64,000 bases of DNA from Candidatus Altimarinota bacterium (GTDB taxonomy: Bacteria; Patescibacteriota; Gracilibacteria; BD1-5; UBA6164). Under the pieces are notes generated by a model. That model ran no database searches and was not told the DNA's origin. It saw only the letters and a list, made by a program, of their open reading frames with translations. Shown here in pieces: positions 125 through 15,933 of this stretch (its first letter is position 1; every line of letters starts with the position of its first letter). Location of the stretch: assembly GCA_020629795.1 (NCBI GenBank), contig JAHDCR010000003.1, positions 45,925 to 109,924 of the forward strand, read 5' to 3'. The position numbers and the translations under genes were made by a program.

Positions 125-151
125 AAAAATCCCTAACGGGATTTTTTTAAT
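122..151. terminator. Bidirectional intrinsic terminator
   Basis: aaaaaaatccctaacgggattttttta stem-loop between convergent genes. Confidence 0.75.
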
Positions 152-1970
152 CTTCATCAATTTCTACTCTGAGAGAGAGCTCTTCGAGCATATCTTCTTC
201 AACCGCAATTGGAGAGTTCATCATTGCATCCTGCGCTTTACCAGATTTTGGAAATGCGTAAATATCTCTGATATTATTTTCATTGAGGTATATCATCATA
301 AGTCTATCAAATCCTATTGCAAATCAACCATGTGGAGGAACTCAATATTGGAATGCTTCATATACGGCTCCAAATTTTTCTTTTACCTCTTCTGCGCTTC
401 GACCAACTGTTTCAAAAGCCTTTACTAATGAGTTAATATCATGATTTCTAATTGCTCCTGAAAGTATCTCATATCCATTACACGCGAGGTCGTATTGGTA
501 CCCGATAACATCGAGTAAGTCATCACCTGTTTTATCAAAGTCAGATGGTCCACCTTGAGGCATTGAGAATGGATTGTGTTCAAAATCTATTTTTCCTGTT
601 ACTTCATCTTTTTCAAAAATTGGGAAATCAGTTATCCAACAAAAAGAAATTTTTGTTGGGTCTTGAAGTTCTAGCATTTCAGCGAGATGTACTCTAAATC
701 TTCCCATATAGTTACAAACGAGATCTCGCTCCCCTGCTCCAAAAAATATTACGTCTCAAACCTGAAGCTCTGTTCTATCTACGATTTCTTGTAGATCTGA
801 TTCCTCAAAAAATTTATTGAGTGGTCCTTTCAGTCCATCTTCTTTCATTTGAAAATATCCAAGCCCTCCAGCTCCAAATTTACGAACATAGCTCTCAAAT
901 CATTTCATTTGAGTTTTTGAAAATACAAGGTCTCCACCTGTAACTTTCATAGCTTTGATTCTATTTGTATCAGTATCTGATGCTATAGATGAAAATATTT
1001 CATTTGATGATCTCGCAAATATATCGGCAACATCTACAAGCTGCATTCCATAGCGTAGATCAGGTTTATCGCTCCCATATTTTTCAATAGCATCGTGATG
1101 CGTGAGAGTAAAGAATTTTCATTTTTCTCTTACTATATCTTTTCCAGATGTTTGAGTAAGAACTTCTTGATCAGAGAGATCTTTTGTTATATCTAAAAGA
1201 AAATCTTCTACAAGAGTAAATACATCCTCCTGTTCCACGAAACTCATTTCACAATCAATTTGATAGAAATCACCTGCATGTCTATCTGCTCTTGGATCCT
1301 CGTCTCTAAAACAAGGAGCTATTTGGAAATATTTATCTATTCCTCCAACCATAAGGAGCTGTTTAAACTGTTGTGGAGCTTGCGGGAGCGCGTAAAACGT
1401 TCCTGGATTGAGTCTGCTTGGCACGAGGAAATCTCTTGCTCCTTCTGGAGATGAATTCGCTAAAATTGGAGTTTGCACATCGAGAAAATCTCTTGCAGTA
1501 AACCAGTTTCGAGTATAGGTCGTCATAGTTGACCTGAACTTTATAAAGTCCTGGATTTTTTTTGTTCTAATATCAAGATATCTATATTTGAGCCTAATTT
1601 CTTCATTAGCAGTATCACCATGACCATCAAGCTCAAATGGAGGAGTTTTTGCTTTTGAAATAAGTTCTACATTATGAACAATAACTTCTATTTCTCCAGT
1701 ATGCATTTTAGGATTCGCTTGCCCCTCTGGTCTTGATCTCACAGTTCCAGTTGCTTTCACAACATATTCAGATCTAAATCCGTCAGCAGTTTCCCATGCC
1801 TGTTTATTATCCTCAGGATCAAATACAATTTGCGTCAGACCATATCTATCTCTGAGGTCTATAAATATAATCCCTCCGTGATCACGTCTGTTACTCACCC
1901 AACCTGAAAGAGTAACTTCCTCTCCAATATTTTTTGCAGTGAGCTGACTACATGTATGACTTCTATGCAT
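147..1970 (-). CDS. aspS: Aspartyl-tRNA synthetase (class II, bacterial type), TGA=Gly
   Basis: N-term [50 protein letters not shown], motif [20 protein letters not shown]-terminal [19 protein letters not shown] (g=TGA); merges tracks 1119..1970 and 342..707. Confidence 0.97.
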
Positions 1971-1984
1971 AGTATTATGTTTAG

Positions 1985-2205
1985 TTTTTAAAAATTAAAA
2001 AAGCACATGAATATATAAAATATATCGCATGTGCTTTCGGTTTGTAGTATCTACAAAAGGTGCCACCTAAAGCTAATTCTTCATTTAATTTTGATATCAG
2101 AGATTTTAAACTCTGGAAGGTTCTACTAAGAATTATCCGTTCTTCCCTCTAGCATCGCAGGTGTTAGTTGCTCAAGTGCTCTTAAAAACTATTTTATATA
2201 TTTAT
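1985..2205 (-). promoter_or_regulatory. T-box riboswitch-like leader of aspS
   Basis: On minus strand: GCTTTAGG-TGGCACC-TTTTGTAGATACTACAAA-CCGAAAGC gives helix A1 (GCUUUAGG/CCGAAAGC), 7-nt bulge UGGCACC and helix A2 (UUUGUAG/CUACAAA). It is followed by the competing terminator AAAGCACATG...CATGTGCTTTTTT. Confidence 0.78.
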
Positions 2206-2235
2206 TGTAAATTGCAATACAATTAAATATTATTT

Positions 2236-8611: not shown

Positions 8612-8893
8612 ATGTGAGCAAATCCAACGTACATACGGCTCAGAAATAAACTTGATGCAGACATCTCTCTCGCAAAGCGAGTAAAGCCATGAGATATTTG
8701 AGCGAAACTACTCGAAATTCCTGATTCTATTGCTGGTAAAACAGTAAAAGTTGAATCAGTACTCTGAAAGTACAAAAGAAAACGTTTTATAATTTCATAC
8801 AAGGATCCAATTAGTGGAAATAAAAGTTTTAAAACTATTCATCCATCAAGTATCAAATCATCATATTTTTACAAAAAAGAATCTTCTACTTAG
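8612..8893 (+). CDS. Small hypothetical protein, paralog of 9710..10003
   Basis: MgANPTYIRLRNKLDADISLAKRVKPgDIgAKLLEIPDSIAGKTVKVESVLgKYKRKRFIISYKDPISGNKSFKTIHPSSIKSSYFYKKESST*. Confidence 0.7.
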
Positions 8894-9709: not shown

Positions 9710-10003
9710 ATGTGAAGAAAACCAAAATTAATTAAACTACGAAATAAATCTGATGCAGATGAGTTTCTCTCTTATGAGATTGAGCAGTGAGATGAATTTG
9801 CAAAAAAATATCCTCTACCAGCAGAACTTTCTGAAAAAACTGTAAAAGTTGAGTTTGTACTCTGAAAGCGTAAACGAAAGATCTTTATAGTATCAGAGAC
9901 TAGTAATGATCAAAAACAAACTACTTTTTATAGAATACATCCCTCAAGTATAGGATTTAAATATTTTGAGGATTATGATGGTGATTTGGCTTTTAAAAAA
10001 TAA
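9710..10003 (+). CDS. Small hypothetical protein, paralog of 8612..8893
   Basis: MgRKPKLIKLRNKSDADEFLSYEIEQgDEFAKKYPLPAELSEKTVKVEFVLgKRKRKIFIVSETSNDQKQTTFYRIHPSSIGFKYFEDYDGDLAFKK*. Confidence 0.7.
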
Positions 10004-10140: not shown

Positions 10141-10662
10141 CTATCAATCTGAACAAACTCGACTAATAGTTCACTCAAACATAGAAAGTGTTTTATCGTA
10201 ACAATAAGGTACATCACTTTGAACGCTACCATAACAAACGTTCCACTCTGGTAAATCATAACTTGGGTATGCATAGTATCACTTTGAATATTTTTTCAGG
10301 TATCTTTTTGAATGTATTTTTGTACCAAATATATAACCTAGTTCATTTCATTTATATTCATCATCTTCAAAATATTTTGTGGCAACAAGATAGTAACAGA
10401 ATTTCTTAGGAGTTATTTCTTGATCTAGCTTTTCATTAAAATCGTTTAAATTACGAAATGTATATTCTTCTCTAGGGACTTCAGCAAGTATAGATTTTAT
10501 CTCTTCTAGTTGTCTAAAATTGTACTCATCAAGTAATATGTTTTCCCTCTCAACTCACTGAAGTACTCAATAATAAAAAAATCCTAATACGATAGCAAGT
10601 ATTATAGAGAGAACACTTCCTCAAATTAAATATTTTTTATATTTCTGTATATAATCTTTCAT
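10141..10662 (-). CDS. Membrane-anchored hypothetical protein of a local paralog family (type B)
   Basis: MKDYIQKYKKYLIgGSVLSIILAIVLGFFYY...EYNFRQLEEIKSILAEVPREEYTFRNLNDFNEKLDQEITPKKFCYYLVATKYFEDDEYKgNELGYIFGTKIHSKRY...FEgTISRVCSDg*; aligns with 12782..13306. Confidence 0.7.
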
Positions 10663-12781: not shown

Positions 12782-13306
12782 TTAGCTAGTGCAAACTCAT
12801 ACGATAGTTCACTCCAATTTAGCAAAGTTTCAATCATAACAAAAAGGCTCTCATGTATTCAAGTTTCTATAACATCTATTATGAATAGGTAAATTGTATT
12901 CAGGATAAACAAAAAATCATTCTGGGTATTTATCTGAATAATACTTAGAGTGTATTTTTGTAGCAAATATGTACCCTAATTCATTTCAATTATATTCTTC
13001 ATCTTCAAAATAATGTGTAGACATTATATAATAACAATATTTTTTTGGTATTACTTCTACATCAAATTGTCTATTAAAGTCTGCAAGTCTCGCAAATTTA
13101 TATTCTTCTCTAGGAACTTCTGAAAGTATAGATTTTATCTTTTCTAGTTGCTTAAAATTATATCTATCGAGCATGATATTATCTATCTCTGTTTTTACTG
13201 GTGAAAACAATGGGCCATAGAAATACATATAAGATATAAGTCACAGCATCAATACTATAATGCTTATATATATATCTCGTCTTGATATGATTTTTAGTTT
13301 TTTCAT
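12782..13306 (-). CDS. Membrane-anchored hypothetical protein of a local paralog family (type B)
   Basis: ...DRYNFKQLEKIKSILSEVPREEYKFARLADFNRQFDVEVIPKKYCYYIMSTHYFEDEEYNgNELGYIFATKIHSKYY...LEgTIVgVCTS*. Confidence 0.7.
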
Positions 13307-13669: not shown

Positions 13670-14371
13670 TTACTCCTCGCATCTATGCGAAACAAGTTCT
13701 TTAAAACTTCTTAAATTTTCATTATAGCAATATCATGCACAAATACTTATATACGGTATATCATATTTTGGGTATACAAAGTACTTTGTTCCATATAAAG
13801 ATGTATATATCAACGATTCTATTCGAAATGAAAAATCATAAAGTTCAGAACCATTATAGGTAGATATATCGTAACACTTATTTATTGGTGTAATATTAGT
13901 GTTGTATTTTTCATTAAATTCTTTTATATCAAAGAACTCAGGAGTATCTTTTGAAATAGATTCGAGTATAGGAAGCGCCTTTTTAAATTGTCAGAAGTTA
14001 TAAAAATCTATGAAGCTATAGAATATTTGCACTGAAATAAAAATCATCATAGCAGGAAGGAAGATTTTCTTAAGATAAAATCATCGATTATTTCTTGCAT
14101 ATTTACGATAAAAGAAATATATAATTCCCGAAGAGACGAGAAGGAAGAGAAAAAAATATATATGGAACCCATAGGTATAAAATAATCCTCCATAGACTCC
14201 TCCACAACTTTCTGCTGCATTCTCTACTCCACTGACTCCATAGAGACAATCTTTAAAACGAATTCTTAAATCGTCTCGGACTAACCCAAAAGTTAAAATA
14301 GCAATTGGAAGTATTGCAAGAAGTGATTTCAATCACTGAATGATGAAATATTTATTTTTTACTTTTTCCAT
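13670..14371 (-). CDS. Multi-pass membrane protein of a local paralog family (type A)
   Basis: MEKVKNKYFIIQgLKSLLAILPIAILTFGLVRDDLRIRFKDCLYGVSGVENAAESCGGVYGGLFYTYGFHIYFFLFLLVSSGIIYFFYRKYARNNRg...EKYNTNITPINKCYDISTYNGSELYDFSFRIESLIYTSLYGTKYFVYPKYDIPYISICAgYCYNE...; start overlaps the upstream stop. Confidence 0.7.
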
Positions 14372-15511: not shown

Positions 15512-15860
15512 TTCATTTGAAGACTAATATGTATGATTTTTCTGGATTATCTTTAAATTGAGAACTCGATAAAGAAAGTTATTTGGAAAGGAAAAATGAT
15601 TTTGTGAGACAAATATCTGTGTTAGAAGAACAAAAGAACGAACTTGGAAAAGACGATTTAGAAGAAAAGATAAAGACAATGTTCGAACTCTCAAAAAACC
15701 TGTATCAGAGCTATAAACAAGCAGATGAGCAAGGAAAATCCGTTTTGCTCCAAAACATAATGTTCGAACTTTTAGTGAAAAACAAAAAAGAGCTCTCCTA
15801 TGCGGAGAACTCTGTGTATTCTTGTCTCAAAATGATGCAAAAACACGATTTTTCTAATTT
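15505..15860 (+). pseudogene. C-terminal remnant of a large serine recombinase
   Basis: YFHLKTNMYDFSGLSLNgELDKESYLERKNDFVRQISVLEEQKNELGKDDLEEKIKTMFELSKNLYQSYKQADEQGKSVLLQNIMFELLVKNKKELSYAENSVYSCLK; no catalytic domain. Confidence 0.7.
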
Positions 15861-15933
15861 GGAGGTACCACCCGGAGTCGAACCGGGCTACAAAGCTTTG
15901 CAGGCTTCTGCATAACCGCTCTGCCATGGCACC
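15860..15933 (-). tRNA. tRNA-Cys (anticodon GCA)
   Basis: GGTGCCATGGCAGAGCGGTTATGCAGAAGCCTGCAAAGCTTTGTAGCCCGGTTCGACTCCGGGTGGTACCTCCA; loop CTGCAAA, CCA encoded. Confidence 0.95.

Follow-up and report, generated by a model that had tools for sequence, protein, structure and literature searches.

The 64,000-nucleotide stretch of DNA analysed here in its entirety (hereafter the window) comes from a Candidatus Gracilibacteria genome and carries aspS, which is directly preceded by a leader running from 2180 to 1997 on the minus strand (Table 1). The product of the gene matches TIGR00459 (644 bits) and PRK00476 (757 bits), both above cut-off: the first-pass annotation had named the gene correctly, and its proper limits emerge only when TGA is read as glycine. 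The leader element measures about 150 nt plus a terminator and folds with a z-score of -3.95, with none of 200 shuffled versions being equally stable. Elsewhere in the window we noted two small families of paralogous unknown proteins (10141-10662, 12782-13306 and 13670-14371; 8612-8893 and 9710-10003), and an ORF at 15517-15933, ending in ...VPPGVEPGYKALQASA, which resembles a recombinase remnant and overlaps a tRNA-Cys gene on the opposite strand.

Table 1. Features of the aspS leader and of the second T-box of the same genome. Positions refer to the window unless another locus is named.
Feature	Position	Strand	Description	Basis
Promoter-like elements	2191..2217	minus	TTGCAA (2217-2212) and TATAAAAT (2198-2191)	sequence; about 10 nt before Stem I
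Ultrashort Stem I	2151..2180	minus	kink-turn AGCA-CUU-GA ... GA-UGCU and upper helix GCA/UGC	two-sided pair changes in relatives; R1 alignment
Specifier codon	2163..2165	minus	AAC (Asn), then A2162, in the 7-nt terminal loop CUAACAC	loop position in relatives
Stem II	2116..2149	minus	GAGGG/CCUUC with S-turn/5-purine motif (5' strand GAA, 3' strand AGUAGA)	covariation and letter conservation
Hairpin, probably Stem IIA	2098..2115	minus	CAGAG-UUUAAAAU-CUCUG	covariation
Antiterminator A1	2033..2073	minus	GCUUUAGG (2073-2066)/CCGAAAGC (2040-2033), one A-G mismatch	sequence, covariation
T-box bulge	2058..2065	minus	UGGCACCU, 8 nt unpaired; UGGCACC at 2065-2059	UGGC complementary to GCCA 3' end
Antiterminator A2	2041..2057	minus	UUUGUAG-AUA-CUACAAA	sequence
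Intrinsic terminator	1997..2038	minus	hairpin and U-run, GAAAGC common to A1	folding, -16.8 kcal/mol alone
aspS, regulated gene	147..1970	minus	bacterial-type aspartyl-tRNA synthetase (AspRS), 607 aa	TGA=Gly reading
Second T-box, before ilvA	L058 1501-1647 (G000:C17:20401-20547)		AUC specifier, UGGU bulge	

Stem I of this leader is only about 30 nt long and has no distal part; it combines a specifier in the apical loop with a kink-turn at the base. Stem II bears an S-turn whose letters are strongly conserved, with GAA and UAGA each present in 163 of 167 hits. The hairpin that follows had been described as Stem III-like; it is indeed present, but is more likely Stem IIA, because it lies directly after Stem II and is succeeded by CCGUYA in many relatives. 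The Stem IIA/B pseudoknot, essential in the ileS T-box of Nocardia farcinica (PMC10651847), was sought by loop-linker complementarity and could not be resolved in the family of the window: the IIB loop-linker value was only marginally above that of shuffled sequences (3.82 versus 3.67, reached by 3 of 200).

The bulge, antiterminator and overlapping terminator claimed by the first-pass annotation are all present in the minus-strand sequence, with the difference that the bulge, given there as UGGCACC, has 8 unpaired nucleotides, i.e. the canonical bulge plus one. The antiterminator alone is predicted at -9.1 kcal/mol. Since GAAAGC is part of both A1 and the terminator, the two structures are mutually exclusive, as is required of a T-box, and an overlapping terminator hairpin ending in a U-run is found in 114 of 135 hits as opposed to 64 of 405 shuffled sequences. 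A scan for consensus promoters and terminators scored neither on this strand; for the terminator this is because its hairpin has a bulge, which falls outside the rule of the tool. The earlier promoter proposal, although without support from that scan, holds at the level of the letters, and all 36 relatives tested have a loose TTG...TA...T pattern ahead of Stem I. We also observed that the stretch AGCAC at the RNA start (2180-2176) repeats the 5' arm of the terminator (2035-2031), as it does in many relatives, and that the 3' arm of the terminator could pair with either copy. A long-range helix CUUGA/UYAAG closing the leader was considered and rejected: its 5' strand is the bulge of the kink-turn, and where this bulge reads AUC the helix cannot form.

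We searched the AspRS loci of 60 relatives and retrieved 30 of them. By AspRS, the closest relatives are Candidatus Gracilibacteria, and the nearest AspRS outside this group comes from Campylobacterota. The same leader pattern recurs upstream of aspS in many relatives, where it is kept over AspRS identities down to about 55-60%; aligned by hand from 5' to 3', it consists of a kink-turn hairpin (AGCR-NNN-GA-helix-loop-helix-GA-YGCU), a second hairpin bearing AAGAA on its 5' side and ANUAGA on its 3' side, a further hairpin, the antiterminator and the terminator. A covariance model built from nine relatives with the window sequence excluded (R1) matched the window at 2033-2181 (E=8e-37) and nothing else below E=1. 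This demonstrates homology of the leader rather than function, because the window sequence was already known when the structure was drawn. In an alignment made by MAFFT only, both partners have changed in 15 of the 34 pairs (4 of 5 in Stem II), and the covariation score lies above those of all shuffled and slid versions (0.372; shuffled 0.195, slid no more than 0.145). In a larger alignment, which had been fitted to the model, the score was 0.608 versus 0.193 shuffled, with the caveat that such fitting favours the structure. Two-sided changes or covariation are likewise seen in Stem I, the Stem IIA hairpin and the antiterminator. Covariation in the aspS leaders of related Gracilibacteria had been proposed as a check on the T-box, and this check came out in its favour, with the UGGC bulge and the exclusive helices retained and covariation above the controls.

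Of 353 genomes of the class, 95 were found with a second covariance model, R2, to carry the element; distant homologues are present in 58 of the 380 genomes sampled from the phylum. As a control we used 80 AspRS loci from named genomes: R2 matched 12 of the first 25, which belong to Gracilibacteria/Patescibacteria along with a small number of uncultured or misbinned records. The other 55, more distant and for the most part from Campylobacterota, gave no match below E=0.5. Separately, a contig labelled Saprospiraceae (L093) encodes a Gracilibacteria-like aspS (69% identity) and is probably misbinned, and a genome of the same phylum has a c-di-GMP-II riboswitch above the gathering score (L293, 2431-2514, minus strand). 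That the leader is merely the ordinary terminator of the upstream gene with a fortuitous UGGCACC might be entertained for an AT-rich region in which a lone terminator is unremarkable; this explanation can be set aside for practical purposes, being already refuted by the conservation across such divergent AspRS, by the covariation and by the second copy before ilvA.

The position of the specifier follows from comparison with the latter type of copy. The same position of the Stem I loop reads AAC or GAC before aspS and AUC before ileS, ilvA and thrC. The first-pass annotation could not place the specifier, remarking that GAC is absent and AAC present; the AAC can now be assigned to the apical loop (Table 1), and a tRNA-Asp-type GAC as specifier is not borne out in the window, the codon being that for tRNA-Asn. 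It is followed by a purine (A), as expected of a T-box specifier, and matches the tRNA of the regulated gene. Two other triplets were ruled out: the GAU in the Stem II tip, since it is the apical Stem I loop that tracks the gene in relatives, and the AAC adjoining Stem II, where the triplets belong to the S-turn.

Specifier, bulge letter and gene change together. Where specifier and gene were both identified, RAC occurs with aspS (49:0) and AUC with ileS, ilvA or thrC (0:49). Of the RAC hits, 49 of 51 have C as the fourth bulge letter, and all 77 AUC hits in which this letter is readable have U there (49:2 versus 0:77). The UGGN bulge between A1 and A2 matches the NCCA end of the tRNA, as a T-box demands. 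tRNA-Ile generally has A73. The genome of the window itself holds both kinds, AAC/UGGC before aspS and AUC/UGGU before ilvA. One genome (G021; L016/L072) departs from the rule: it combines AAC with UGGU, yet the discriminator of its tRNA-Asn is G73, in which case a G-U pair would remain. Being drawn from related genomes, the loci counted here are not independent events, and Fisher P values consequently overstate the association; the pattern still spans many genera. The distant homologues in the phylum mostly precede ileS with AUC, and in some the loop reads GUC and the gene is valS. Such Val-type copies (L285, L286, L287, L288, L293, L296 and L297) have GUC in the Stem I loop, which in several is 13-14 nt long, e.g. 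GGAUUAAUGUCACC; L285 and L287 precede valS. In five loci (L018, L022, L025, L026, L030) another small gene intervenes between the T-box and aspS, these genes appearing, by eye only, to be Fic-like, acetyltransferase-like, HIT-like, HD-like or short and unknown. One gene family (MHIEIEKKY..., CYTH-like by eye) is found soon after Ile-type T-boxes in L183, L184, L190, L197, L199 and L215.

The tRNA ends agree with this reading of the bulge. The suggestion that UGGC answers to the G73 discriminator of tRNA-Asn or tRNA-Asp is upheld: the tRNA-Asp of the same genome ends in GCCA, as do 8 of 8 tRNA-Asn genes of relatives, three of them from the same genus. Because no tRNA-Asn gene was found in the assembly of the window (95% complete), G73 of its tRNA-Asn rests on the same-genus relatives. 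Asparaginyl-tRNA synthetase (AsnRS) gave no match over cut-off in 60 relatives, this genome included, and GatB was over cut-off in 57 of the 60, again including this genome. Of the near-full-length asnS matches in a few relatives, the one tested (L310, G005) proved to be an archaeal-type aspartate--tRNA(Asn) ligase and not an AsnRS. With no AsnRS detected and GatB nearly universal, we infer that AspRS acts on tRNA-Asn, which it should charge with GatCAB completing Asn-tRNA-Asn; Asn is hence a sensible specifier before aspS.

A T-box with two codons, for Asp and Asn, is known from Clostridium, where it governs an AspRS of tRNA-dependent asparagine formation. The present leader resembles it in its place before an AspRS inferred to be of this kind, but differs in having a single codon, AAC or GAC, in the apical loop. 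The two-codon case (Saad 2013, as cited in PMC7778990 and PMC4206432) lends some plausibility to the idea that the leader responds to tRNA-Asp, alone or together with tRNA-Asn, through another triplet such as a GAU at the tip of Stem II or the foot of Stem I. The regulated gene is, after all, aspS, GAU triplets are present, and the loop does read GAC in a close relative (G008; L003/L074) and in two further genomes (L261 and L264, the latter with an archaeal-type AspRS). Nonetheless, we regard this as improbable, given that 48 of 51 RAC-type hits have AAC at the very loop position where AUC stands before ileS, and that the GAU triplets are not conserved as such.

In its UGGN bulge, A1/A2 antiterminator, exclusive terminator and location before genes for aminoacyl-tRNA synthetases and amino acid metabolism, the element is like the canonical T-box of RF00230, and unlike it in lacking the long distal part of Stem I with its interdigitated T-loops. 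RF00230 gave no score on the window leader or elsewhere in its genome at E up to 10, an outcome that had been listed beforehand as refuting a T-box; it is likely that this reflects the poor description of the ultrashort Stem I class by that model. RF00230 does match L264 of the same class (E=1.7e-5) and several distant homologues at the R2 coordinates (L287, 1.3e-8; L292, 7e-8; L296, 1.5e-6; L294, 4e-6; L282, 0.004). None of these matches reaches the gathering cut-off (31-52 bits versus the curated 93), a value set for T-boxes with a long Stem I and not a structural criterion. The missing score and the unresolved pseudoknot leave some room for a protein-binding or other attenuator, T-box-like by descent, that has lost tRNA sensing; we consider this very unlikely, as the joint change of specifier, bulge letter and gene over many genera is explained by a reader of tRNA and not by such an attenuator.

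The nearest counterparts are the ultrashort Stem I ileS T-boxes of Actinobacteria, e.g. Nocardia farcinica (Sherwood 2015, to the extent cited in PMC7583486). Intermediate and ultrashort Stem I are features of most translational T-boxes, which are mostly actinobacterial (PMC7583486), and in TBDB the class II model was run on Actinobacteria and on class I hits that were truncated (PMC7778990). Our element shares with the actinobacterial class the apical-loop specifier, the short kink-turned Stem I without an elbow-binding distal part and, with N. farcinica ileS, the Stem II S-turn with a GAA/GUAGA 5-purine string (PMC7583486). When the ilvA copy is numbered from the A of AGC, its AUC (16-18), A19 and GAA (37-39) bear the N. 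farcinica numbers (PMC7583486). It differs in having transcription terminators in place of Shine-Dalgarno sequestration, so that the translational action described for the actinobacterial class is replaced by U-run hairpins, in its Asn, Asp and Val specifiers besides Ile, in its hosts from the candidate phyla radiation (CPR), and in its 8-nt bulge and the pseudoknot unresolved in the family of the window. We found no earlier report of a T-box in Gracilibacteria or the CPR in the literature searched, which does not exclude prior reports.

Thus, the aspS leader of this ultrasmall Gracilibacteria (CPR) bacterium is almost certainly a miniature T-box riboswitch, as first proposed: its parts, their conservation and compensatory changes, and the agreement of specifier and bulge with the gene and the tRNA end are observed, and RF00230 matches its distant homologues, though below the cut-off. 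With high confidence we further read it as a transcription-controlling T-box with an ultrashort Stem I that senses tRNA-Asn and turns the gene on when this is uncharged; binding and antitermination themselves are inferred, there being no experimental data. The AAC in the Stem I loop would pair with the GUU anticodon of tRNA-Asn, and the Stem II S-turn may dock against this codon-anticodon pairing. When uncharged, this tRNA would pair through its GCCA end with the UGGC of the bulge and stabilize the antiterminator, which would hide GAAAGC from the terminator and let RNA polymerase read into aspS; with charged tRNA-Asn the terminator is predicted to form. Given the apparent lack of AsnRS and the route via AspRS and GatCAB, uncharged tRNA-Asn would be a suitable signal to raise AspRS.

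More broadly, we lean towards the view that the CPR has its own widespread lineage of transcription-acting ultrashort T-boxes (on ileS, ilvA, valS, thrC and aspS), in which tRNA specificity was switched in place, from Ile to Asn to Asp, through changes to the specifier and a single base of the bulge. Such a lineage might have a common origin with the ultrashort T-boxes of Actinobacteria. The finding brings a class of regulatory RNA to bacteria about whose gene regulation next to nothing is known, and points to transcriptional T-boxes that lack the elbow-binding half of Stem I, considered essential for this class in a review (PMC7583486). The natural pairs in which specifier and bulge base have changed together offer a ready test of T-box specificity, and the element is a compact candidate switch for genetic tools in Gracilibacteria-type organisms.
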